DNA from: Loktanella sp. D2R18
GTDB lineage: Bacteria; Pseudomonadota; Alphaproteobacteria; Rhodobacterales; Rhodobacteraceae
DNA: 64,000 nt
Direction of reading: 5' to 3'
Assembly (NCBI RefSeq): GCF_003318235.1
Contig: NZ_QOCG01000032.1
Span: 1-64,000, forward strand
How positions within the stretch are numbered: the first letter of the stretch is position 1; every line of letters begins with the position of its first letter. The notes under the pieces were generated by a model. The model did no database searches. It saw only the letters and a list, made by a program, of their open reading frames with translations, and was not told where the DNA came from. The position numbers were made by a program, and so were the translations under genes. Below are positions 22,959 to 44,650 of the stretch, piece after piece.

Positions 22959-23446
22959 TTGTTCGCCTCGCGACACCCGCCGACGCTGCTCACATGACCA
23001 CATTGCTCAACGCGATTATCGGAGTTGGCGGGTCAACGGCGCATGAAACGCCATTTACTGTCGAAAAGATGCTGTCTGACTATATCCTGCCGCCTGCGCT
23101 GGTCTGTTGTCACGTTGCTGAAAACGCGGGCAAAGTTGTTGGATTCCAGTGGCTGGGATGGCCGCGAAATCCCGATGATCCAATGCCCAAAGGTTGGGGC
23201 GTTATCGCAAGCTTTGTCGCGCCAGAGGCGGCAGGCATGGGTGTTGGACAGGGCCTGTTTGCTGCTACAAAATCTGCAGCGAACACGGCGGATGTTGCAG
23301 TGATCGACGCAACAATCCGCGCCGATAACGTCGCTGGATTGCGCTATTACGGCGGGCTTGGATTCCAAGACTATGATCGGTTGATCGATATCCCGCTGCG
23401 CGACGGCACGAAAGTAGATCGGATCCGCAAGCGGTTTGATCTTTAG
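22955..23446 (+). CDS. GNAT family N-acetyltransferase
   Basis: 163 residues with a single GNAT fold. The acetyl-CoA binding motif is in FVAPEAAGMGVGQGLFAATK near residue 90, and the C-terminal part has RADNVAGLRYYGGLGFQDY, typical of the family. The substrate cannot be told from the sequence. It overlaps the HD hydrolase stop by four bases. Its stop interlocks with the stop of the convergent export lipoprotein gene (TTAG), with no terminator between them. Confidence 0.85.
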   Translation: MIVRLATPADAAHMTTLLNAIIGVGGSTAHETPFTVEKMLSDYILPPALVCCHVAENAGKVVGFQWLGWPRNPDDPMPKGWGVIASFVAPEAAGMGVGQGLFAATKSAANTADVAVIDATIRADNVAGLRYYGGLGFQDYDRLIDIPLRDGTKVDRIRKRFDL

Positions 23447-24792
23447 TTCGCAGCGAGTGCTGCGCCACCGGTAATCAATGACGGAACCATCTGCTGCACA
23501 ACCCGGTGCCACCGTGTAACCGGTTGCTCAGCGATAAAGATGATATCGTTGGGGCGTAGGTTCATCTGTGTCGCCAAGACCAAATTGGCGACATTGCGCG
23601 CATCAAGCTGCCACGCCGTAACAGCGCCATCGTAACCCGCGCGCAGCACATAGATTTGCGCAGGGTTCGCGGTTTGGCTGGTAAAGCCCCCTTCAGAAAA
23701 CAACGCATCGGCCAATGTCGCCTCGCGCCCGAACGGCAAGGTAAACCGCCCCGGTGCGATGACTTCACCGGTTAGGTAAACATCGTCGCGCGCGACAGCA
23801 TCAAGCGCCAGTTGATCCTGAAAATTCGTACGGCGCACTGCCAACGTCGCGCGGCGCTGGTTCAGTTCGGCGGTCAATGCCGCCACTGCTTGCGCCCGTG
23901 CTTGGTTCCGCGTTTGCGCCAAGGTGATCTGCTGCTCAAAATATACCTGCGCCCGCTCAAGTGAAAATTCAGTATCGATATAGATACTATCCCCGCCCAA
24001 AAGTCGTATTTTGTGAAATTCTGGCGTCGTCAAATATTCGGACAGCAACAACTGATAAAGTGAGCCACCGCGATAAATTCGGATCGACACGTCGGTCCCA
24101 TCAGACACGGCGACACCGCCAGCACGTGAAATTGCTTCATCCAGGTATATTGGTGTGAGCGTGATCGGAATCGAAACTGGTGCCGCCACCGCACCTCCGA
24201 TCACGACGGACTGCGCATGAAACTCTGCCATTTCTAAGCTAAACGTCGGGTCGATCCGCGCGCTCACAAAGCTCTCGAAAAGACGGGCTTCTGCTTGCGC
24301 GAGCGTCAGATCAAGCAGCATGACCCGGCCAACTGCGGGAATGGAGATCATCCCATCATCTTGGACCGTATATGTCGCTTTCTCGTCTGGCGGAGCCGAA
24401 GATGTATCGCGGTTTGTTTCTGGCTGTGTCGTTAACCTGACGATGTCACCGATGCCAATTTTATAGGGCTCTGGGTCAACCTGTGGCGGGATGCGCGTCG
24501 CCAATTGCCGGGGTTGCGGCGCGTCGCCTAGCACAGGCAAAACGCCCATCCCTTGCACCCCATTGCTAGCGTTTGCCGCGATTTGCTGTGTAAATGCCGC
24601 CGGAATTGCGCGTGGGCTATAGGGTGACTGATTGGCCGTTTCGATGGCTTGGGCCGTCAAGGGTACGACCGTAACAACCCCGTCTTCTGCTTGAACCTTG
24701 GGCGATACATATGCGGCCCCGCACCCCTGCAAAACAAGGACTGCGAACAGCATTAAGCATAGGCGTACATCGTGAATCGCTTGACCAAGCAA
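23443..24792 (-). CDS. Polysaccharide export outer-membrane lipoprotein (Wza-like)
   Basis: About 449 residues. A lipoprotein signal ends in VLVLQGC, with the Cys as lipid anchor. A Poly_export domain follows (IGIGDIVRLTTQ near residue 95 of the mature protein) and then SLBB-type repeats, including VYLTGEVIAPGRFTLPFGRE. Wza-type proteins form the outer-membrane channel for capsule or exopolysaccharide export. The start is uncertain: TTG at 24792 has AGGA upstream and gives a good signal peptide, ATG at 24753 gives a very short one. No Wzc kinase or flippase is adjacent. It is divergent from a GGDEF-EAL protein, which suggests c-di-GMP input. Confidence 0.85.
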   Translation of the reverse strand: MLGQAIHDVRLCLMLFAVLVLQGCGAAYVSPKVQAEDGVVTVVPLTAQAIETANQSPYSPRAIPAAFTQQIAANASNGVQGMGVLPVLGDAPQPRQLATRIPPQVDPEPYKIGIGDIVRLTTQPETNRDTSSAPPDEKATYTVQDDGMISIPAVGRVMLLDLTLAQAEARLFESFVSARIDPTFSLEMAEFHAQSVVIGGAVAAPVSIPITLTPIYLDEAISRAGGVAVSDGTDVSIRIYRGGSLYQLLLSEYLTTPEFHKIRLLGGDSIYIDTEFSLERAQVYFEQQITLAQTRNQARAQAVAALTAELNQRRATLAVRRTNFQDQLALDAVARDDVYLTGEVIAPGRFTLPFGREATLADALFSEGGFTSQTANPAQIYVLRAGYDGAVTAWQLDARNVANLVLATQMNLRPNDIIFIAEQPVTRWHRVVQQMVPSLITGGAALAAN

Positions 24793-24940
24793 AATGAAAT
24801 TATTCCTACCAACATCCCCAACGCCCAAGATGCGTCAAGATTGGTTAATGATTACTTAATAGGAGGAGCTCGCAGGCACCTAACCTTACCTTAAGCAATC
24901 CAGTTCAACTTGCATGGCCAAACCCCATAGGATTCGGTTG

Positions 24941-31330: not shown

Positions 31331-31795
31331 ATGCAAGTTGCAGACATCCTCAAGCCGGACGCGGTGAAAACCATCGCGTCTTGCACCAGTAAAAAGCGGC
31401 TGTTTCACGACTTGGGCGAGATGGCGAACACAAGCTATGGTTTGAACCCAACCCATGTTATCGATGCTCTCATCGAACGCGAGGGGCTTGGACCAACCGG
31501 TGTCGGGCATGGTATCGCATTGCCCCATGCCCGCCTGCACGGCGTAAATGAAGTTCAGGGTATTTTTCTACGTCTTGAAAAGCCTTTGAACTTTGACTCT
31601 GTTGATCGCCAGCCCGTCGACCTTGTATTTTGCCTGATTGCACCTGAAAATGCAGGCGTTGAACACCTTAAAGCGCTTGCGTTGATATCACGTACCCTGC
31701 GTGATGACGCGATTTGCGCAAAACTGCGCGCGAATAGTGATGCCGCCACACTGCACACAATTTTGACCGCAGAGCAGTCGTCGCAAGCCGCTTAG
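31331..31795 (+). CDS. ptsN: PTS IIA-like nitrogen-regulatory protein PtsN
   Basis: 154 residues, EIIA-Ntr fold. The phosphorylated His lies in GHGIALPHARL near residue 66. PtsN receives phosphate from PtsP and NPr and regulates potassium uptake, nitrogen and envelope genes. In many proteobacteria it is linked to rpoN, which is absent here. Its TAG stop interlocks with the stop of the convergent sulfotransferase gene (TTAG), and I see no terminator between them. Confidence 0.92.
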   Translation: MQVADILKPDAVKTIASCTSKKRLFHDLGEMANTSYGLNPTHVIDALIEREGLGPTGVGHGIALPHARLHGVNEVQGIFLRLEKPLNFDSVDRQPVDLVFCLIAPENAGVEHLKALALISRTLRDDAICAKLRANSDAATLHTILTAEQSSQAA

Positions 31796-33225
31796 GCCCA
31801 GTTTCCGAACCCAAACGCTGCGTAGTCACGCGCATAGGCAGCACGCGTGGCATCCTCGATCACCCCATCGTAGATCGCGACCAATCGGTTGTGGTGTTGA
31901 TGAACGGTGCCACCCAGCAGCGGCATAGACTCAATTCCTACCTGTGCCGCAAGCACTGCAAGTTCGTCGCCAAGACTGTCTTCTCGACAAATCACGTCAG
32001 GGAGTGAAATCGTAGCGATGCCTTGCAAAAGGGAGAGCTGGCTAGACCAAGCTGGGTCAACCCGAATGGCCGTTTGCCCCCCCAGATTTTGACGCAAAAA
32101 CTGCAGAAATCCCAAAAACGCTGCGCGATGCGCCGTGTTGCTATATGTATTCGTATCCGTTAGGTCCGGCAACGGCTCTGGAATCGGGAGTTTGTGAACC
32201 CTGCGCAAATTGGCGCGAATGCCGGGAAGACTTTCCGGTCCATCGGATAAAATACAGTCGCAAAACGCGGCATGTGCGCGGGCCACCGGATGCCGCAGCA
32301 CGGTAAAACTACGGTAGCCGGCATGGGTTTCTTGCCATGTGCGCAATGTTTTTTGGGTAAACTTGCGACGCAATTCGCGTGGCCGCGTCGCTTCAACATC
32401 AGCGAGCCAGCGCCGCACCTCCCAGTCCGGCCCCGACCGTAACGGCATAAACAGAAGCCCCGCTTTGTCTGACGCGACATATGTTGGCACGGCCGCACCA
32501 CGCCGTGGTTCAAAATTCGGGGTCCGCGATAGATCAAACCGATCCAACGGCCCAAGCGCCGCTTTCATCGTGTCAAAATTGCTCACGCGCTGATCAAGCG
32601 GCTCAGGGTTTTGTTTCTTCATCTTTTTATCAAGCCCATCAAGACGCGCATCAACGCCCAAAAATGCGGCTAAGCCGTTTAAGATTTCCACGTCGCGTAG
32701 GTCGTCATAACCAATATAGAATGCCGTTTGCCCGCTGGTCTGTAGCCTGCGTTGAATATCCAACTGAAACTCTTGCAGCCGCGCCAGTAGCGCCTCAAAC
32801 TCTTCTGAATCAAAAGCAATTTGTAACGATTTTGCATTCGTCGCATTGGTCAGCTTCCATTGCCCCGTCGCCCGCGCGGATTTCCAGCTCACGTAGCTGT
32901 CCAGCGGGTTGCGCGTCAGAATAATCTTGGCACAGCGCGGGTCATCCATGCATATGGTTAATGCGCGCGGATCATGATTATGAAAGAATCGAAACCCAAC
33001 TAAACCGTCATCCGCGACGATTTTTGTGATAAGTGCGGAGGGGTCCGCGTCACGATCATCTCGTGACATTCCAAGCAGATCATCCGTTTTGGGGTAACCG
33101 ATAAACGCGGGGTTAAAGGCTTCTCCGTGGCAGGTTACCCCTTCCAGCGCGTTCAAATTCGCTTCAAGAAAATTGGACCCTGTCCGCATTTCCGCCAGGA
33201 TAATGAAATAGTCAAATTTGGTCAT
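31792..33225 (-). CDS. Double-domain sulfotransferase
   Basis: 477 residues. The first half (about 1-240) is Stf0/NodH-like, with the PAPS 5'-phosphosulfate loop in LAEMRTGSNFLEANL and the 3'-phosphate motif in ILTRNPLDSYVSWKSA. The second half (about 260-477) looks like a second sulfotransferase: FTVLRHPVARAHAAF resembles a 3'-phosphate motif, and the C-terminal RAAYARDYAAFGF fits the family end, but its first loop (FMPLRSGPDWEVRRWL) lacks a clear PAPS-binding pattern. One active and one degenerate domain seems likely. It overlaps the glycosyltransferase gene upstream by four bases, so sulfation of the same glycan is the simple inference. Confidence 0.75.
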   Translation of the reverse strand: MTKFDYFIILAEMRTGSNFLEANLNALEGVTCHGEAFNPAFIGYPKTDDLLGMSRDDRDADPSALITKIVADDGLVGFRFFHNHDPRALTICMDDPRCAKIILTRNPLDSYVSWKSARATGQWKLTNATNAKSLQIAFDSEEFEALLARLQEFQLDIQRRLQTSGQTAFYIGYDDLRDVEILNGLAAFLGVDARLDGLDKKMKKQNPEPLDQRVSNFDTMKAALGPLDRFDLSRTPNFEPRRGAAVPTYVASDKAGLLFMPLRSGPDWEVRRWLADVEATRPRELRRKFTQKTLRTWQETHAGYRSFTVLRHPVARAHAAFCDCILSDGPESLPGIRANLRRVHKLPIPEPLPDLTDTNTYSNTAHRAAFLGFLQFLRQNLGGQTAIRVDPAWSSQLSLLQGIATISLPDVICREDSLGDELAVLAAQVGIESMPLLGGTVHQHHNRLVAIYDGVIEDATRAAYARDYAAFGFGNWA

Positions 33226-34925
33226 TTGTGGCCAACTACATAAGATCGCGGTTCAGAAACCACAGTCGCCCGACGATGCATTTCTTCCGAAAGATGACCT
33301 GTCAAAAATGGGTGCATCCCTTGATTTTTGAGCTCTTGCAGAAACGCTGGCAAGCCGCCTAAATCAACCATTTCAGGAAGTTGCCCAAGCGCATGGGCCT
33401 TGTGTCCTCCGATTTGATCAACAAGCATTTGCAAGATATCGCGTGGGTTTTCAAGAAAATCCGCCAAAGTATAGATATGGATGCGCGCATGTGCGTCAGG
33501 CGCGCGTAGTGCGTTCAGAAATTGGTTTTCGCGACGCTGCAAACGCGCGGCTTCAGTCCTCACCTCCGCTGCAGACCGACCTGATAAGAACAATGGAATC
33601 GACCAAGCGCCAGAGATCACCCAAACGCGCGCGTTGGTATCATGTGCCAGAAACCATCGGATAGACTGTGTATCCGCAGGCCCAAACATAAAGCATTGAT
33701 ATTGATCACGCGTGGTCCACATCAAATTTGTTAAAAATCCTTGCGCATTGTAATCGCGCAAGCGCGCACTGTCAGACAGCGCGCCGCGAAACACCGCTGC
33801 ACCATCTGCAAAATGGGCCTTATCCTTTGCATAAAGATGCCCGTGAACGGTTGCCTCGGTTTGCAGCGCAAGCCAGTTCTGAAAACCTGGAAACAGCGCG
33901 TCAAAGCCCTGCATTACCGAAAACGGCGCGGCAGCGATCCCGTTTGCCTTTTGCATATTCGGAAAACGGCTATGCATATATAGACCTGCCCGCCCGCGCG
34001 TACGGCGCTCAACCGCTTTGTCGAAAATGCGGTCCACTGTGCCCGTACTCGGCCTTACAGCACCCGCTGCCTTATCCGTCGCGCAGGGAAAACTTTCATA
34101 GAGCACCTGTGCATTTGGCCAAATTTTACGCGCGACAAAGCAACCAGAGCGTCGTAATATTTCTACGTGATCATCGTAAAAGATATGCGGCTTCCCCTGA
34201 AAATCGAATTTTGACAACGTCAGTGATCGACTTTGGATGCGTGCTGCATGTTTACGTGCAAGCGTTTGAAAATAGCTTTCGTCAGGGATCCAAACCCGTT
34301 GGAAATATCGGTCATATCTGCGCCGAAGTGGGTCGTTCAAAATCGCCTCAAGCGTCTTACGCGTCAGACACCACCACTGCGATCCCATATGTGGCACTAA
34401 ACCCTTTGGGGTTCGCCGCTTGATCCCAATGATCTGCTGCAACCGAACATAGCCGTCAAACATCCGCCGCCGCCGTTTCCAAGCAAAAGGGAAACGCAGG
34501 GTAAATCGTTCACGATCAAGCCCACCGATCGTCCAAGGGACGTCAGCGGTCGTGGCGCTTTCGATGAAATCGGTTTGAGGGCTGGCATCCAAAAATGCGC
34601 GCAGTTCCGAGATTGGGCGAAGTGGCAGGCAGGAACCGGACGCCAAAAAGACGCGCCCCACTTGTTCAAACTCAGCCAACAAATGCTGCACGGCGTCTTG
34701 CGTGGCCGCAACCAGCCCCCACATGCCCCATTCGCAACGGTGACGCGTGCTAAACCGGACGTCAGCCAGATCATCCAAATTTGCAACAAAGCTATCATAG
34801 GTCGTGTCATCGACATTGCTATCGACATGTATCGCCACCGGACACCCGCCCTCAGACCAATGGCGCACCATCTGTTCTGCACGGTCAAAATCCGTATGTA
34901 CCAATATGACGACACCTAAACTCAT
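33222..34925 (-). CDS. Glycosyltransferase, core-2/I-branching type with extra C-terminal domain
   Basis: 567 residues. The first about 300 residues resemble beta-1,6-N-acetylglucosaminyltransferase-like (GT14) enzymes: VVILVHTDFDRAEQMVRHW at the start, FLASGSCLPLRP, and MGSQWWCLTRKTLEAIL then WIPDESYFQTL. The remaining about 260 residues have the conserved domain seen in Roseobacter relatives, with FMFGPADTQSIRWFLAHD. It likely adds a sugar branch to a surface glycan. It overlaps both neighbours by four bases (ATGA), so it is translationally coupled to the glycosyltransferase before and the sulfotransferase after it. The sugar substrate is unknown. Confidence 0.78.
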   Translation of the reverse strand: MSLGVVILVHTDFDRAEQMVRHWSEGGCPVAIHVDSNVDDTTYDSFVANLDDLADVRFSTRHRCEWGMWGLVAATQDAVQHLLAEFEQVGRVFLASGSCLPLRPISELRAFLDASPQTDFIESATTADVPWTIGGLDRERFTLRFPFAWKRRRRMFDGYVRLQQIIGIKRRTPKGLVPHMGSQWWCLTRKTLEAILNDPLRRRYDRYFQRVWIPDESYFQTLARKHAARIQSRSLTLSKFDFQGKPHIFYDDHVEILRRSGCFVARKIWPNAQVLYESFPCATDKAAGAVRPSTGTVDRIFDKAVERRTRGRAGLYMHSRFPNMQKANGIAAAPFSVMQGFDALFPGFQNWLALQTEATVHGHLYAKDKAHFADGAAVFRGALSDSARLRDYNAQGFLTNLMWTTRDQYQCFMFGPADTQSIRWFLAHDTNARVWVISGAWSIPLFLSGRSAAEVRTEAARLQRRENQFLNALRAPDAHARIHIYTLADFLENPRDILQMLVDQIGGHKAHALGQLPEMVDLGGLPAFLQELKNQGMHPFLTGHLSEEMHRRATVVSEPRSYVVGHK

Positions 34926-35965
34926 GCCCAGTTCCCCTTGGACATCAAGCCGAGCGCCTCAAGCTGGCGCCAGTTCAAATATTGTTCGCTCCACTGGCAC
35001 CAGATTTCCGGATCGTTATCAGCACCGGCATAGGATTTATATTCTCGCCCAGCACCATAGTGTTCGGCGCGTTCCGCTTCTTGACTGGCGCGCGGGCCAA
35101 AGGTGTTCAGAAACTTTGCGTGCAACAATACCCCGGACGTTTTCTCACCCCCATTTTGCCCGTAAACAAGGTTTAGCCCGCGCGGCAAAAGCATGTGGGT
35201 AGAGCTGACATAGGTGAAATCACGATCCCATTTAACGAAGGGAATTTTGTTCAATGCCGGGGCTTGTCTGGGTTTTTCTGCAAAGAAAACGCGTGCGCGC
35301 GCCCCCCCTTGAATCCACAAATTGCGGTAAAAATCATTGCGCTTGAGCGTGTAATTTCCTGGATCAAACCAATTGGCAAGTTTGAACGGGTCCGCGCCGC
35401 GTTGGTAAACCGCGTCACTGACTTGCCCTTTTGGATACATATCCAGCATCATCGTGCCGAACGACCGGACTTCTGACGCTTCAAGCCAATCGGCCAAGGC
35501 CCGCACAGGCCGTGTATCGCAAAACGGGTAGACAAAAAATTCGTCGACATCGACAGTTAATACCCAGTGGCCATGCGCGTATTTCCCTTGCAAATAGGTT
35601 AACCAATCCATCCCAAAACGCGATTTACCATAGTGTGCATCCGTTTTCCAAAGCGACACATCCGGCTGACCTGCGACATACGCGTCGCCGCCATCATCGC
35701 TGCCGTTGTCGACCAAAAGAAAGTGGGTCACCCCCAGTTTGCGGTAATAGTCCAAGAAAAACGGCAGTCGGATATCTTCGTTTCGAAACGTACAGCATAG
35801 CAGGATATCAGATGGGGTAATTTGCGCTGTGCGATCTTGGATAGGGGTCAATTCACGACCTTTACGGCGCGCGCGTATTTTCCAACGTTTCCGCCGTAAT
35901 CGCAGCCGATATGATGTCCAAACCCCCAAAATGTATCCCTCTCTAACGCCATTCACCCGGCGCAA
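34922..35965 (-). CDS. Glycosyltransferase family 2-like protein (paralogue A)
   Basis: 347 residues. A very basic N-terminus (YRLRLRRKRWKIRARRKGRE) leads into a GT-A domain: CTFRNEDIRLPFFLDYYRKLG, HFLLVDNGSDDGG and the metal-binding VDVDEFFVYP. It is a close paralogue of the gene just upstream, aligning nearly end to end, down to GNWA versus GEWR at the C-terminus. The ATG at 35965 lies 22 bases inside the upstream gene. Such proteins add sugars to surface polysaccharides; no membrane segment is visible, so it acts at the cytoplasmic face. Confidence 0.8.
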   Translation of the reverse strand: MRRVNGVREGYILGVWTSYRLRLRRKRWKIRARRKGRELTPIQDRTAQITPSDILLCCTFRNEDIRLPFFLDYYRKLGVTHFLLVDNGSDDGGDAYVAGQPDVSLWKTDAHYGKSRFGMDWLTYLQGKYAHGHWVLTVDVDEFFVYPFCDTRPVRALADWLEASEVRSFGTMMLDMYPKGQVSDAVYQRGADPFKLANWFDPGNYTLKRNDFYRNLWIQGGARARVFFAEKPRQAPALNKIPFVKWDRDFTYVSSTHMLLPRGLNLVYGQNGGEKTSGVLLHAKFLNTFGPRASQEAERAEHYGAGREYKSYAGADNDPEIWCQWSEQYLNWRQLEALGLMSKGNWA

Positions 35966-36968
35966 TCAGCCCAAGCTCAACGAGCTGTTCCCACCCTTTA
36001 TAGGTCATAGACCTATCGGTCCACAAATCAGGGCCTGCAATCAAACCCTGATAATATTCCGCATAAAGCGCACTATTCTCGAAATGCTGCTGTCGATCCA
36101 TTTCCTCGGACGAACGGGGTGCGATATCGGGCAGAAATTTGGTATGCAACAAGACGCCCGTCATCTTTGTCTTTGATGGCCAGTCGAACACCTGATTCAA
36201 CCGTCGCGGCAGCATGTGATGGGTCGAAGTCACATAAACATTGCGCCAGTGCCATTTGACTAGTGGGGTTTTATTCAGGCTCGGCGCCCGATCTGGGTCA
36301 GCTTGGAAAAACACGCGGTCACGCACCCCGCCTTGAATCCATTGGTTGCCGAATACCGGATGCACCCGATGCCGATACCCCGATCCATCAAACCAGCCCA
36401 GCGCAGTAACAGGGTCTTGTCCTTGTTTATAAGATACATTGGTTAACGGCCCCTGAGGATACATATCCAACATCAACGCACCAAATGTGGGCAAACCTTG
36501 TGAATCGAGATGGGCCGTCAACGCTTGCAAATCGCGGCTGTCGCTTTGCGGATAGACCAGCAATTCATCAGCATCGACAGTCAAACACCAGTGATCCGAT
36601 CCATATTGCCATTGCAGCCAACCTAACCAATCCATGCCAAACCGCGATAATTTGTAACTATGCGATGTGGTCCACAGAGAAACGTCAGATTGCTTGGCTA
36701 GAAAATCGGCCGTACCATCCGTGCTAGCGTTATCCACGATAAGAAAATGTGCGACGCCAAGCTTGCGGTAATAGTCCAAAAAATGCGGCAACCGCAGCAT
36801 TTCATTGCGCACCGTCGAAAACGCCAGAATTGCACCGGGCGTGATCTGTTTAGTACGATTGGAACGCAGTTCAATCTGCTTGCGGTTGCGCCAAATGCGC
36901 AACAGAATGCGCCGCCGTTTCCAGCGCAAACGGTACGCTAACCATGCATCCGTGAACTTCGCGCGCAA
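35943..36968 (-). CDS. Glycosyltransferase family 2-like protein (paralogue B)
   Basis: 341 residues with the same layout as the next gene: a basic N-terminus (YRLRWKRRRILLRIWRNRK), then FSTVRNEMLRLPHFLDYYRK, HFLIVDNASTDGTADF and VDADELLVYP as donor and metal site. The shared blocks DYYRKLGV, SRFGMDWL and LMLDMYP mark a tandem duplication. It starts 16 bases after galU and overlaps paralogue A by 23 bases. Differences around the acceptor region (SYRHRV versus NYTLKR) suggest a different acceptor or donor. Confidence 0.8.
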   Translation of the reverse strand: MRAKFTDAWLAYRLRWKRRRILLRIWRNRKQIELRSNRTKQITPGAILAFSTVRNEMLRLPHFLDYYRKLGVAHFLIVDNASTDGTADFLAKQSDVSLWTTSHSYKLSRFGMDWLGWLQWQYGSDHWCLTVDADELLVYPQSDSRDLQALTAHLDSQGLPTFGALMLDMYPQGPLTNVSYKQGQDPVTALGWFDGSGYRHRVHPVFGNQWIQGGVRDRVFFQADPDRAPSLNKTPLVKWHWRNVYVTSTHHMLPRRLNQVFDWPSKTKMTGVLLHTKFLPDIAPRSSEEMDRQQHFENSALYAEYYQGLIAGPDLWTDRSMTYKGWEQLVELGLIAPGEWR

Positions 36969-36984
36969 TCTTTCCCCTTGCTGC

Positions 36985-37866
36985 CTAAGCAGGCAATTTC
37001 AAATCTTTCAGGAACGTTGTTAACTCGTCACGCAGTTCAGGCCTGTTCAATGCAAATGACACCGTCGCTTGCAAAAATCCTGCCTTTGACCCGCAATCGA
37101 ACCGCTCCCCTTCGAACTTAAACCCAAAGATGTCACGTCCAGTGGTCAGCTCATAAGCGATCGCGTCAGTGAGCTGGATTTCACCACCAGCACCGCGTTC
37201 GATCTTTTCAAAATTTTGCATAATACGTGGCGTCAAAATATAACGCCCAATCACAGCAAGATTTGATGGCGCCGTGCCGGGGGCAGGTTTTTCGACCATG
37301 CCTTTAACCTCAACAACCGATCCTTCGTCACTGATTACATCCAAAATTCCATAGGACGATGTTTTTTCTGGCGCGACTTCCATCGCAGCAACCATTGCAC
37401 CGCCTGTGTCTTGATAGGCTTCGATCATCTGTTGCAGACAAGGTTTCTCTGCCGCGATCACATCATCAGGCAGGATAACCGCAAACGGTTCATCGCCAAT
37501 CAATTTGCGCGCGCAAGACACAGCATGCCCGAGGCCAAGCGCCTTGTGCTGACGGATATAGGCAATCGCACCGCTGTCCATATTGGTGGCTTGCAAGGTT
37601 TCAAGCAGCTCTGTCTTGCCCGATTTGCGCAACGACGATGCCAATTCAGGAGAATGATCAAAATAATCTTCGAGCGCAGATTTCCCGCGTGACGTCACAA
37701 AAATAAAGTCTTCGATCCCCGCAGCCCGGGCCTCGTCAATCGCGTATTGGATCAACGGGCGATCCACCAAGGTCATAATTTCTTTGGGGACAGATTTGGT
37801 TGCGGGCAAAAACCGCGTTCCCATGCCAGCCACTGGAAAAATTGCTTTGGTTACTTTTCTTTTCAT
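36985..37866 (-). CDS. galU: UTP-glucose-1-phosphate uridylyltransferase
   Basis: 293 residues. It makes UDP-glucose from glucose 1-phosphate. The nucleotide loop is FPVAGMGTRFLPATKSVPKE, followed by LVDRPLIQYAIDEA and the substrate motif GLGHAVSCARKLIGDEPFAV. The Mg site is ILPDDVI, and KFEGERFDCGSKAGFLQA is at the C-terminal end. The ATG at 37866 is good. It lies just upstream of four glycan-assembly genes on the same strand, which suggests it supplies their donor sugar. Confidence 0.95.
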   Translation of the reverse strand: MKRKVTKAIFPVAGMGTRFLPATKSVPKEIMTLVDRPLIQYAIDEARAAGIEDFIFVTSRGKSALEDYFDHSPELASSLRKSGKTELLETLQATNMDSGAIAYIRQHKALGLGHAVSCARKLIGDEPFAVILPDDVIAAEKPCLQQMIEAYQDTGGAMVAAMEVAPEKTSSYGILDVISDEGSVVEVKGMVEKPAPGTAPSNLAVIGRYILTPRIMQNFEKIERGAGGEIQLTDAIAYELTTGRDIFGFKFEGERFDCGSKAGFLQATVSFALNRPELRDELTTFLKDLKLPA

Positions 37867-37953
37867 GTCCGTGCCTCTTTATTACTTACACTCAGCGTAG
37901 TGCCGATGGTCGTGGGCCTAAAGGGAATTTTTCTAGCTTTTATGCCCCAGCGG

Positions 37954-38754
37954 CTAAGCATCGCCCATTTCTTGCAACATTGCCTCAATAAGTGGCACAT
38001 CTTCAGGATTGTTTAATTCCCAAAACTGACGACCCTTTCCCTCAACTTCGACGCAAAGCACGGGCGTACCGCGCTCCAAGAACCGGAGCTGTTCCAGACC
38101 TTCGAGCTGCTCGAGCGGCCCTGCGTCCCATGTCGGATAGGATAAAAGCGCATCGGGTCGGTAAGCGTAGACACCCACATGGTGAAACACAGGCGTTTCA
38201 TCCGCATCCTCATAGGTCTTACCCGTATAGGGGATCACCTCTTTTGAGAAATAAAGCGCATTGTTACTCTTTCCAAACACGGCCGTGGTGCCCCCAACGC
38301 GACCGGCGCGGCGATCAGCCATAAAGCTGTTTAAGGCGCGCCCTTCGGTCCGTAAAACAGGCGTTGCCACGTCTGCTTGCGGGTTGGCACGTAGCCCAGC
38401 AACAAGATCTTCGACGAACCACGCAGGTGTTAGCGGCGCATCACCTTGTAAATTCACGACAATGTCGTAGCCGCCACCGATATTTGCGACCGCTTCGGCA
38501 CAGCGTTCGGTCCCGTTTTGGCAATCAACCGATGTCATCACCACCTCGGCCCCAAAGTCGCGCGCAGCTTCCGCGATACGGTCATCGTCCGTCGCGATCA
38601 CAACCCGATCGACACCTTTCACTTGCATCGCGGCATCCCAAGACCGGCGGATCAGCGTTTTCGCAATCCCATCAGCCCCGCGCAATTCAACAAGCGGCTT
38701 GCCAGGATAGCGGGTCGATGCATAGCGCGCTGGGACAACGATAAGGACAGGCAT
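37954..38754 (-). CDS. kdsB: 3-deoxy-manno-octulosonate cytidylyltransferase
   Basis: 266 residues, usual for KdsB. It activates Kdo as CMP-Kdo for LPS or capsule. The N-terminal VVPARYASTRYPGKPL, the NLQGDAPL metal loop and HVGVYAYRPDALLSY near residue 190 match the family. It starts at the cysQ stop (one-base overlap), so the two are coupled. Together with kdsD at 27.7 kb it covers two steps of the Kdo pathway in this window. Confidence 0.93.
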   Translation of the reverse strand: MPVLIVVPARYASTRYPGKPLVELRGADGIAKTLIRRSWDAAMQVKGVDRVVIATDDDRIAEAARDFGAEVVMTSVDCQNGTERCAEAVANIGGGYDIVVNLQGDAPLTPAWFVEDLVAGLRANPQADVATPVLRTEGRALNSFMADRRAGRVGGTTAVFGKSNNALYFSKEVIPYTGKTYEDADETPVFHHVGVYAYRPDALLSYPTWDAGPLEQLEGLEQLRFLERGTPVLCVEVEGKGRQFWELNNPEDVPLIEAMLQEMGDA

Positions 38755-39551
38755 TATCCTTGCTCCAACGTGACACCCGGCGACAGCGCAATAAAGAATG
38801 GGTTTTCGAAAATAGGTTTGCCATAGGTCAGCGGCGTATGATCATCAAACCGCACCACCTGCCCGCCGGCCCCTGTCAGTACGGCATGCCCGGCAGCCGT
38901 GTCCCATTCCATCGTGCGACCAAGACGTGGATAAAGATCGGCCTCGCCCGTTGCGACCAGACAGAATTTCAACGATGACCCTGCGCTTTTCATGTCTTGG
39001 ACATTGTATTTATTGATATAATCATCTGTCGCTTGATCCCGGTGGGATTTGGACGCAACGATCAAAAGCGCGCTATTGTCCGGCTTGGACACCTGCAAAG
39101 GCGCCGTTTCACCAACCATATCTTTCGCAAACACGCCAGTTTCCTCGACCGAAACGCCCGCCGCATCGGTATAAAACAGCCGCTCTTTGGCGGGAGCATA
39201 AACGATCCCGCGGACCGGGACGCCATCAACCACATAAGCAATGTTCACCGTAAAATCTCCGCGCCGTTTGATGAATTCTTTGGTCCCATCCAACGGGTCA
39301 ACGATTAAAAACGTGCTAACGGATTGACCGTGCGAGTCTGACTGCTCCTCGGTCACAAGCGGCACATCAGGGAATGCCGCACGCAGGCCTGCGCTGATGA
39401 TTGCATCGGCCGCTTCATCTGCTGCAGTTACCGGGCTTTCATCGCTTTTCGCGCGCACATCAAAATCATCGGCAGCGTAGATTTCCATAATCTTATCGCC
39501 CGCCAAAAGCGCGAGTTCCCGCATCACGGTGTTCAGTTTCTCAAAATCCAT
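38754..39551 (-). CDS. cysQ: 3'(2'),5'-bisphosphate nucleotidase
   Basis: 265 residues of the inositol monophosphatase-like family. It removes the 3'-phosphate from PAP, the by-product of PAPS-dependent sulfation and sulfate reduction. The metal site is VTEEQSD followed by IVDPLDGTKEFIKRRGDFTVN, and the C-terminal motif is EWDTAAGHAVLTGAGGQ. It heads the cysQ-kdsB pair directly upstream of galU and the sulfotransferase operon, which fits a role in clearing PAP from that sulfotransferase. A more general role in cysteine synthesis remains possible. Confidence 0.92.
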   Translation of the reverse strand: MDFEKLNTVMRELALLAGDKIMEIYAADDFDVRAKSDESPVTAADEAADAIISAGLRAAFPDVPLVTEEQSDSHGQSVSTFLIVDPLDGTKEFIKRRGDFTVNIAYVVDGVPVRGIVYAPAKERLFYTDAAGVSVEETGVFAKDMVGETAPLQVSKPDNSALLIVASKSHRDQATDDYINKYNVQDMKSAGSSLKFCLVATGEADLYPRLGRTMEWDTAAGHAVLTGAGGQVVRFDDHTPLTYGKPIFENPFFIALSPGVTLEQG

Positions 39552-39655: not shown

Positions 39656-40480
39656 ATGTTTCAAACCCGCCGGAATGTGTCGACCTTAGGCAGCTTTTTC
39701 AGCAATCTCGACCTGATTTACGAAGTCACCGTGCGATCTGTGCGCGGTGGCCACAGAAATGCTGTCGTCGGCCTTGTTTTGACTATTTTACAAAGCCTTG
39801 TTTTGGTGGCCGTATTCTTGGTGATGTTCATGGTCGTCGGGGTGCGCAGTTGTCCGATACCGGGCGAAGATTTCCTGATCTACATCATGTCCGGCGTGAT
39901 GCTGTTTCGTACACATGTCCAATCCGTTAAGGCGACCCAAGGGGCTAACGATGCATTGGCGCCGATGATGCTTTATGCGCCAATGAACCCGATTGTGACG
40001 ATATGCGCATCAGCGCTTGCAACATTGTATCAACAGCTTTTGGCGATTTTGGTCGTCTTAACAGTCTACCATTGCGCAGTTACCCCGATCTATATCGACA
40101 ATCCGATTGGCGCGATGGGAATGTTTTTGCTCGCGTGGTTTTCGGGATGCTGCATCGGGGTTCTATTTCTTGCCATTACGCCATGGTTTCCACGTACAAT
40201 GGCCATTGTCGGGCAACTCTATCGCCGCATGAATATGATTGCTTCTGGTAAGATGTTTTTGGTAAACTCTCTGCCTGCAAGCATGATCGCGATGTTTGAC
40301 TGGAACCCCTTGTTCCACATTATCGACCAAAACAAAGGCTTTGTTTTTCTGGATTATAACCCACATTTCACCACAATTTCTTACCCATTGCAGGTATCAC
40401 TGGTCTTCTTGGTTCTCGGCATGATGGGCATGTTTTTCACGCGGCAACATGTTTCTGCCAGTTGGAGCATGGGGAAGTAG
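39656..40480 (+). CDS. Polysaccharide ABC export permease (KpsM-like)
   Basis: 274 residues with six likely membrane segments, the ABC-2 export permease type. Segments lie at about 41-65, 74-92, 121-142, 152-178, 205-222 and 242-262, with an amphipathic N-terminus. KpsM-type permeases move capsule or O-antigen-like polymers across the inner membrane. The partner ATPase (KpsT-like) is not in this window. It is divergent from cysQ with 104 bases between. Bases after the stop carry an A/T-rich dyad. Confidence 0.8.
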   Translation: MFQTRRNVSTLGSFFSNLDLIYEVTVRSVRGGHRNAVVGLVLTILQSLVLVAVFLVMFMVVGVRSCPIPGEDFLIYIMSGVMLFRTHVQSVKATQGANDALAPMMLYAPMNPIVTICASALATLYQQLLAILVVLTVYHCAVTPIYIDNPIGAMGMFLLAWFSGCCIGVLFLAITPWFPRTMAIVGQLYRRMNMIASGKMFLVNSLPASMIAMFDWNPLFHIIDQNKGFVFLDYNPHFTTISYPLQVSLVFLVLGMMGMFFTRQHVSASWSMGK

Positions 40481-43891: not shown

Positions 43892-44650
43892 ATGTCCCAT
43901 TTTGCCGAATCGCGCTCTCTTTTTGCTGACATTGATGACGTTGTGGTGCCCGCCAAGGCGCGCGCACCTTCCTATCTGCGCGACCACCGCAAACGGTTGC
44001 GCGATCGGTTCCTAAACGGCGGCGCGACAGCCATCCCCGACTATGAACTGCTTGAATTAATCCTCTTTCGTGCGATCCCACGCCAAGATGTGAAACCGTT
44101 GGCACACTTGCTGATTCAAACCTTCGGTGACTTTAATCGCGTCGTATCAGCGCCCGTAAGGCAACTGACGCAGGTCCGGGGCGTCGGCGAATCTGTAGCG
44201 ACTGAATTGAAAATTGTCGAAGCAGCGGCGCACCGTCTTGCCCGCGCGAAAGTAATGCAACGCCATGTGGTATCCAGTTGGGACGCGTTGTTGAACTATT
44301 GCCACACGACAATGGCCCACCGCGATACAGAACAATTTCGCATCCTGTTTTTGGATACCAAGAACACAATTATTGCCGACGAAGAACAGGCAAAAGGCAC
44401 GCTTGATCACGTGCCAGTCTATCCACGCGAGGTCGTCAAACGCGCGTTAGAGCTAAATGCAGCTGCATTGATATTGGTGCATAATCATCCTTCAGGTGAT
44501 CCAACGCCATCGGCCGCCGATATCGACATGACCGCGCAGGTTAACCGCGCTGCGCAGGCGCTTGGCATCACACTGCATGATCATCTTATTGTTGGAAAGT
44601 CTTGCGAAACCAGCTTTCGTGCACAGGGGTATCTGGGCGCGGATGCTTAA
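43892..44650 (+). CDS. radC: DNA repair protein RadC (JAMM/MPN family)
   Basis: 252 residues. An N-terminal helix-hairpin-helix region with LLIQTFGDFNRVV and VRGVGESVATELK precedes the MPN domain, with the JAMM metal motif AALILVHNHPSGDPTPSAAD near residue 205. The true role of RadC is unclear; the original link to repair was disputed. The ATG at 43892 is good. Its stop interlocks with that of the convergent unknown gene (TTAA), with no terminator between them. Confidence 0.9.
   Translation: MSHFAESRSLFADIDDVVVPAKARAPSYLRDHRKRLRDRFLNGGATAIPDYELLELILFRAIPRQDVKPLAHLLIQTFGDFNRVVSAPVRQLTQVRGVGESVATELKIVEAAAHRLARAKVMQRHVVSSWDALLNYCHTTMAHRDTEQFRILFLDTKNTIIADEEQAKGTLDHVPVYPREVVKRALELNAAALILVHNHPSGDPTPSAADIDMTAQVNRAAQALGITLHDHLIVGKSCETSFRAQGYLGADA

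Follow-up and report, generated by a model that had tools for sequence, protein, structure and literature searches.

A locus of seven minus-strand genes in Loktanella sp. D2R18 (Rhodobacteraceae; assembly GCF_003318235.1, contig NZ_QOCG01000032.1) encodes enzymes predicted to assemble and sulfate a surface glycan. The whole stretch of DNA that was analysed, positions 1 to 64,000 of the contig, is referred to as the window. A preliminary description of this DNA had reported seven genes of stated families, and all seven open reading frames exist at the positions listed in Table 1. They encode CysQ, a phosphatase of 3'-phosphoadenosine 5'-phosphate (PAP); KdsB, which activates 3-deoxy-D-manno-octulosonic acid (Kdo); GalU, which supplies uridine diphosphate (UDP)-glucose; two glycosyltransferases of the GT2_4 family; a GT14 glycosyltransferase fused to a DUF5927 domain; and a two-domain sulfotransferase. 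The last four are the assembly genes, which are joined by overlaps of 4, 4, and 23 bases, in agreement with the 4–23 bases given previously. A gap of 16 bases separates the assembly genes from galU, and one of 87 bases separates galU from kdsB. The gene of a KpsM-like permease of the ATP-binding cassette (ABC) type is divergent to the seven.

Conserved gene order and joint loss

Conservation of the gene order, which the preliminary description had named as a test of its proposal, has been examined in 78 stretches: 60 from 60 genomes, approximately one per genus, and 18 that are divergent or lack the sulfotransferase. The order and strands of ptsN, the sulfotransferase gene, GT14, cysQ, and kpsM are those of the window in all 60 loci that hold the five markers; in the other 18 stretches at least one marker is not within the stretch. 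The recurrent order is lptC-lptA-lptB-hpf-ptsN, then sulfotransferase, GT14-DUF5927, GT2_4, galU, kdsB, and cysQ, and then kpsM-dnaK-dnaJ. The names of lptA, lptB (as an ABC ATPase), hpf, ptsN, dnaK, dnaJ, and radC are derived from Pfam matches; Pfam gave nothing for lptC, which is named from its place and by reading. Of the 78 loci, 46 have one GT2_4 place, 31 have two, and one has none; four of the stretches are shorter than 20 kb. In 65 of 77 loci, a GT2_4 gene overlaps GT14 by exactly 4 bases, as in the window. The spacing between GT14 and the sulfotransferase gene is −8 to 128 bases in all 73 fetched loci containing both, of which only 7 have overlapping genes. Because the order and strands never differ among the 60 loci with all five markers and the overlap recurs in 65 of 77, the arrangement of the genes in the window is not a product of chance.

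The order-wide set comprises 292 genomes, all of which are listed under one family code. The sulfotransferase is matched in 279 of them at E ≤ 1e-3, with a single match in most genomes; the match in G198 (E = 1.8e-15) is at the level of a paralogue, which leaves 278 of 292 at the level of an orthologue. DUF5927 is matched in 283 genomes, once as a 35-bit scrap and in the other 282 at E ≤ 3.9e-45, and these 282 genomes are also the ones with a KpsM match at E ≤ 3.4e-47. A class sample of 385 genomes yields five DUF5927 matches, all of them in members of the family, and none in the other 380 genomes, for 20 of which kinship is listed and for 360 not. The module is core to Rhodobacteraceae and near-universal among the sampled members.

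GT14-DUF5927 and KpsM are missing jointly from the same 10 of the 292 genomes; the search for KpsM in these gave nothing in five and only matches with E ≥ 1.2e-8 in the other five. The sulfotransferase is gone too in all ten. Among the 13 genomes without a sulfotransferase match, nine have no DUF5927, G075 has the 35-bit scrap, and G059, G221, and G239 keep the domain. The kdsB regions of the ten genomes without a full DUF5927 contain no gene for KpsM, the sulfotransferase, GT14, or GT2_4, apart from scraps of 31–52 residues in that of G075 (L088). All ten regions retain kdsB, at least eight retain cysQ, and at least seven retain galU, the last two counts being lower bounds because two of the stretches are short (13.4 and 13 kb). 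A few of the genomes that keep the module have a GT14 gene that is broken or split (for example G117, E = 1.5e-61); such genes were counted as present. A tree built from KdsB, CysQ, and GalU, in which nine of the ten losers are among the 82 rows (L184 lacked data), requires seven losses, at least four of which are forced by starred branches. Builder and exporter genes are lost together in lineages that lose the module. In G075 (L088:8503-9621), short GT14-DUF5927 and GT2_4 remnants persist and KpsM is gone, which is a module caught in the course of decay.

The unit is made up of KpsM, the GT2_4 enzymes (one or two), GT14-DUF5927, and the sulfotransferase. Of the seven-gene module proposed previously, the glycan-assembly and sulfotransferase unit stands and is tied to KpsM; cysQ, kdsB, and galU are not dedicated parts of it. 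Because these three genes are mostly retained where the assembly genes and KpsM have been lost, they are mostly housekeeping neighbours that supply general precursors and clear PAP. Since kdsB is retained in ten of ten losers, Kdo activation continues without the module, and KdsB has a single match in the Loktanella genome. The position of cysQ next to a sulfotransferase, which had been regarded as a functional fit, is weak evidence, as cysQ mostly stays without the module. A direct link between CysQ and the sulfotransferase has been rejected, because cysQ is present in 8 of 10 stretches from sulfotransferase-less genomes. The supply of the sulfate donor 3'-phosphoadenosine 5'-phosphosulfate (PAPS) has also been rejected as a linked trait: adenosine 5'-phosphosulfate kinase is found in 57 of 57 genomes, regardless of the sulfotransferase.

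Table 1. Positions of the genes and domains of the locus, and of the candidate export gene, in the window.
Feature	Positions	Strand	Basis and remarks
cysQ (PAP phosphatase)	38754-39551	minus	CysQ TIGR01331, over cut-off
kdsB (CMP-Kdo synthetase)	37954-38754	minus	KdsB NF003950, over cut-off
galU (UDP-glucose supply)	36985-37866	minus	GalU TIGR01099, over cut-off
GT2_4 glycosyltransferase a	35943-36968	minus	PF13704
GT2_4 glycosyltransferase b	34922-35965	minus	PF13704; 47% identity to GT2_4 a
GT14 (Branch) glycosyltransferase fused to DUF5927	33222-34925	minus	PF02485 + PF19349
DUF5927 domain (residues 266-564)	33234-34130	minus	PF19349; profile match to sulfotransferase N domain; donor motifs missing
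Two-domain sulfotransferase	31792-33225	minus	35-member set, predicted structure
Sulfotransferase N domain (residues 1-239)	32509-33225	minus	NodH/Stf0-like
Sulfotransferase C domain (residues 248-477)	31795-32484	minus	Sulfotransfer_2-like, degenerate donor motifs
KpsM-like capsule ABC permease	39656-40480	plus, divergent	NF050053 48.6 bits (cut-off 300); PDB 8tsh_C
Wza/KpsD-like outer-membrane export protein (candidate partner only)	23443-24828	minus	Poly_export + SLBB

Among the named organisms in the scan, the closest to the window is Yoonia sp. I 8.24, with 92% for the sulfotransferase. Scans for promoters and terminators gave numbers close to those expected from shuffling (9 versus 8.5 and 16 versus 12.5, respectively). 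In the window, radC (43892-44650) comes after dnaK-dnaJ; the available part of one paper includes R. capsulatus radC in a table of gene-transfer-agent recipient genes expressed during competence (PMC10218006).

Domains of the sulfotransferase and of GT14-DUF5927

The N-terminal half of the sulfotransferase, analysed as a 35-member set, matches PDB entry 9vki, named 'LPS sulfotransferase NodH' (LPS, lipopolysaccharide), with E = 1e-13. In the predicted structure of the protein, which has a mean predicted local distance difference test score of 85.6 and a predicted template modelling score of 0.51, residues 2–241 superpose on sulfotransferases, with Z = 12.5 to Stf0 (194 residues aligned, root-mean-square deviation 4.3) and Z of approximately 12 to heparan 3-O-sulfotransferases. 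All 74 sequences compared share the donor loop RTGSN (residues 14–18), R105, and S113, which correspond to the 5' and 3' phosphate-binding motifs of PAPS sulfotransferases. The N-terminal domain is predicted to be a PAPS-dependent enzyme of the NodH/Stf0-like type with intact donor motifs.

The C-terminal half appears to be related to Sulfotransfer_2 (PF03567), which is matched at E ≤ 0.1 by 28 of the 35 members (best E = 1.2e-9); in the window protein the match spans residues 284–435 and scores 18.2 bits, under the cut-off of 22. H312 and P313 are present in 74 of 74 sequences and R311 in 65. The place expected for the motif lysine is occupied by isoleucine, valine, leucine, or methionine, and there is no conserved serine near residues 319–320; these places are what we take to be the canonical donor-motif positions, assigned by eye. 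The second domain appears to belong to the sulfotransferase fold family, but is probably inactive. The 'double sulfotransferase' of the preliminary description therefore holds in that both halves appear to be members of the fold family, but probably not as a pair of active enzymes, since the donor motifs of the second half are degenerate. An origin of the halves by duplication is not supported (hhalign E = 0.0023, probability 12.6).

Four genomes (L071, L072, L073, and L086) lack the sulfotransferase alone at the locus, where the matches of GT14 and ptsN are 45–97 bases apart; they retain GT14 and KpsM. Because of these four genomes, sulfation looks like a decoration of the glycan.

The GT14 glycosyltransferase of the window scores 67 bits against PF02485 (cut-off 23.4), and the predicted fold of its residues 1–286 resembles that of core-2 N-acetylglucosaminyltransferase (GnT) 2gak_B (Z = 25.1, 267 residues aligned, root-mean-square deviation 2.8). 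The DUF5927 domain that follows possibly has a diverged sulfotransferase fold that lacks the donor motifs; this is a good lead, but not a result. Profile comparison of DUF5927 with the N-terminal domain of the neighbouring sulfotransferase gave a probability of 63.8 and E = 6.7e-5, and the same comparison with more divergent members gave an hhalign probability of 75.6 and E = 2.4e-5 over 181 columns; in global mode the match is weaker (probability 21.6, E = 2e-4). Controls with 15 further families from the locus, with the GT14 half, with the C-terminal domain, and with two reversed profiles reached E = 0.032 at best. The predicted secondary structure of DUF5927, judged by reading, follows the sulfotransferase order. 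Neither the RTGSN loop nor the second-motif arginine of the N-terminal domain has an equivalent in the aligned DUF5927 sequence. Searches of PDB and Pfam with the DUF5927 domain gave no sulfotransferase, and comparison of the uncut GT14-DUF5927 protein with the sulfotransferase profile gave nothing, the signal coming only from cut domains. The fold search with the whole model was filled by matches of the GT14 half and is uninformative on DUF5927. The retention of DUF5927 in the four genomes that have lost the sulfotransferase argues against the domain being a mere dock for this enzyme.

On a Paracoccus plasmid (L189:7028-9569), a GT14-DUF5928 gene and a Sulfotransfer_2 gene are divergently oriented, with rpmF-plsX and a gene for a ketoacyl synthase next to them; this is a second pairing of GT14 with a sulfotransferase within the same order. 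DUF5928 has been rejected as a further sulfotransferase-like domain, as it is represented by one sequence with E = 0.041 to the N-terminal domain and, at best, 0.012 to DUF5927.

Exporter genes

The best match of KpsM in PDB is 8tsh_C (E = 5.7e-9). A KpsT gene beside KpsM was sought and rejected: the KpsT query gave none in the module loci, the best match having approximately 30% identity and E = 1e-12. Five loci, among them L179, which is without KpsM, contain a total of five further ABC ATPases, and these look on reading like uptake or multidrug/type I types. Genome-wide searches used the KpsT of a Thioclava plasmid as the query, with up to 10 candidates scored per genome. An ATPase of the KpsT class was found at E ≤ 7.4e-37 in all 282 genomes that keep the module. 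In the ten losers, six have only matches with E ≥ 2.5e-16, two have matches of approximately 1e-28, and two of approximately 1e-70; the strong KpsT of the last two is probably from another capsule locus. Thirteen keepers were inspected fully, namely the Loktanella genome and 12 picked because their best KpsT match was of the weaker class. Each of the thirteen has one ATPase at E of 1e-38 to 1e-43, with the next ones at approximately 1e-15, and the Loktanella genome has an additional KpsT-class ATPase at 7e-63.

In the Loktanella genome, kpsT is part of an unlinked locus with the order kpsT, a KpsE-family gene, and kdsA. Searches with tblastn in 12 relatives detected kpsT in all 12 (64–84% identity), the KpsE-family gene in all 12 (41–52%), and kdsA in 10. 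The KpsT of the Loktanella genome matches 8tsi_A (E = 1.2e-39) and the KpsE matches 8tsh_E (E = 1.4e-28). The same genome contains a second KpsT/KpsE-like pair (L220, G000:C8:60300-80299), with 37% and 28% identity to the core proteins, which is apparently another capsule locus.

The export route envisaged in the preliminary description combined the divergent KpsM-like permease with a Wza-like lipoprotein, the gene of which is 14.8 kb from KpsM in the window. The permease, co-lost with GT14, remains part of the route; the Wza-like gene has been rejected as a conserved partner, since it is a neighbour in only 2 of the 64 loci with at least 9.5 kb beyond the sulfotransferase.

Proposed mechanism and relation to known systems

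The locus is interpreted, with moderate confidence, as one half of a split-locus, ABC-exported glycan system of the KpsMTE type that is core to the family and would place a probably sulfated glycan on the cell surface. Glycan assembly would take place in the cytoplasm, where one or two GT2_4 enzymes and GT14-DUF5927 would act on an acceptor that is a lipid or a Kdo-lipid. The NodH/Stf0-like domain, the family, motifs, and fold of which have been identified, would transfer sulfate from PAPS to the glycan. KpsM together with KpsT and KpsE from the unlinked kpsT-kpsE-kdsA cluster would export the product, and CysQ, KdsB, and GalU would provide general precursors and remove PAP.

Several results weigh against this interpretation. 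The sulfated surface glycan is predicted from genes alone. The window sulfotransferase, taken singly, is below every Pfam cut-off, and 54 of the 57 genomes checked also have matches to other sulfotransferases (Sulfotransfer_3), so there is other sulfation as well. With 48.6 bits, KpsM falls below the NCBIfam equivalog cut-off of 300 (NF050053) and is therefore a distant KpsM-type relative. KpsE scores 178.5 bits against a cut-off of 437.5 for TIGR01010, and that of a second relative checked scores 181.8. Co-occurrence and a shared best match are what suggests that the unlinked KpsT-KpsE pair and KpsM of the module may form one machine, and the co-loss of KpsT is not clean, as two losers have a strong KpsT match and two a middling one. 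A Wza/KpsD-type channel is syntenic in only the 2 of 64 loci, with no channel search made elsewhere in the genomes. The loss of GT2_4 is known from the fetched loser stretches and not from a genome-wide search. The losers are judged to be somewhat clustered on the quick three-protein tree, because 15 of 500 shuffles gave a value as low.

It is unlikely that the enzymes instead decorate or extend the core or O-chain of LPS, with an LPS sulfotransferase like 9vki and a permease that exports an O-chain-like glycan or is a mere neighbour. Genes of the LPS-transport type, for an LptA-family protein and for an ABC ATPase similar to LptB, lie on one side of the module and a KpsF/KdsD-family isomerase gene is among the flanking genes, all of these being kept in most loci; kdsB adjoins the module, and the solved protein that best matches the sulfotransferase carries the name of an LPS enzyme. 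By contrast, the best matches of KpsM, KpsT, and KpsE are to a capsule exporter, and kdsB, and thus Kdo activation, persists in ten of ten losers of the module. A small molecule, or a glycolipid that is not exported, is improbable as the substrate of the sulfotransferase, whose place in the operon would then be historical. The loss of the sulfotransferase alone from four genomes that retain GT14 and KpsM would fit such a role, as would the nearest fold, Stf0, solved with the small sugar trehalose; however, heparan sulfotransferases are among the other near folds, 278 of the 282 module genomes keep a sulfotransferase orthologue, the gene adjoins GT14 in all 73 loci with both, and it has disappeared from every genome that lost the module. 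That the order reflects a frozen housekeeping region without shared function, as the lpt genes, ptsN, and dnaK-dnaJ, which are also kept, could indicate, is a very remote possibility, because KpsM, GT14, and the sulfotransferase are lost together genome-wide in several lineages, with the GT2_4 genes also gone from the fetched stretches, whereas cysQ-kdsB-galU mostly stay.

A more specific version of the split-locus exporter interpretation is tentative. It proposes that DUF5927 is a catalytically dead sulfotransferase fold that would hold the acceptor for GT14 in a near-universal KpsMTE-type 'core capsule', so that the locus would encode three sulfotransferase folds, one of them active. Rhodobacteraceae is a large, mostly marine family, the members of which are very common marine bacteria. 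If the interpretation is correct, a common marine group shares one undescribed, probably sulfated surface glycan. Such a core capsule would be a candidate for the shared attachment of phages or gene transfer agents, for surface colonisation, and for a role in the cycling of marine sulfated carbon. DUF5927 would gain a testable identity, and KpsM, KpsT, and KpsE of scattered loci would be assigned to one machine.

Searches of open PubMed Central found no account of DUF5927 and no description of a family-wide core module with this make-up and a two-locus exporter, which is weak evidence. There, the literature on roseophage receptors contained nothing fitting by title, that on LPS sulfotransferase, NodH, and LpsS is rhizobial by title, and the available part of an R. 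sphaeroides transposon study does not mention kdsB or galU. The accessible portion of a paper on the gene-transfer-agent receptor deals with a different capsule cluster and contains neither 'sulfo' nor 'glycosyltransferase' (PMC10218006).

Single components of the module have relatives elsewhere. The N-terminal domain is like the NodH, Stf0, and LPS sulfotransferases (9vki, 1tex) in sequence, fold, and donor-loop residues, but has a second, degenerate Sulfotransfer_2-like domain fused behind it. Residues 1–286 of GT14 share the fold of core-2 GnT (2gak) and xylosyltransferase 1 (6ej7); unlike these enzymes, the window protein is fused to DUF5927. Shinella plasmids and Rhizobium tropici (L186-L188) carry a GT14 gene overlapping a GT2_4 gene, with DUF5927 matches of E = 2.3e-5, 1e-4, and 1.1e-4 that are under the 27-bit cut-off, so the pairing of GT2_4 with GT14 is also found without the other parts of the module. 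The pair is plasmid-borne and has no sulfotransferase in it, although Shinella has one 4–5 kb further on. The R. tropici GT2_4 has 43–44% identity to those of the window, and a KpsM-type ABC-2 permease (28% identity to a plasmid KpsM) is located approximately 4 kb from GT14. From its listed start codon, this GT2_4 (L188:6509-7987) has approximately 145 extra N-terminal residues relative to those of the window, and the neighbours in the permease region read like transposases.

Capsules usually vary between strains, whereas the module described here is present in 282 of 292 genomes. In group 2 capsules, KpsC and KpsS make the Kdo linker. Sulfated, ABC-exported capsules are already known, even with kpsT apart from kpsDME: according to the part of the paper available, the capsule cluster of Vibrio sp. 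KMM 8419 includes sulfotransferases and PAPS genes (PMC11641403). It resembles the present system in ABC export, the separated kpsT, and sulfotransferases, but differs in having other glycosyltransferase families within an 80-gene, strain-variable region, and GT14 is not named in that part of the text (PMC11641403). In the KpsMT-KpsE system of the 8TSH series, as set out in the accessible text, the glycan is made inside the cell on a lipid anchor, usually with a Kdo linker made by KpsS and KpsC, and is exported by KpsMT with KpsE and KpsD (PMC11041684). The likeness to this system extends to homologues of KpsM, KpsT, and KpsE, all three of which best match chains of the 8TSH series (PMC11041684); the difference is that in Rhodobacteraceae KpsM sits with the glycosyltransferases, and KpsT, KpsE, and KdsA are encoded in another locus.

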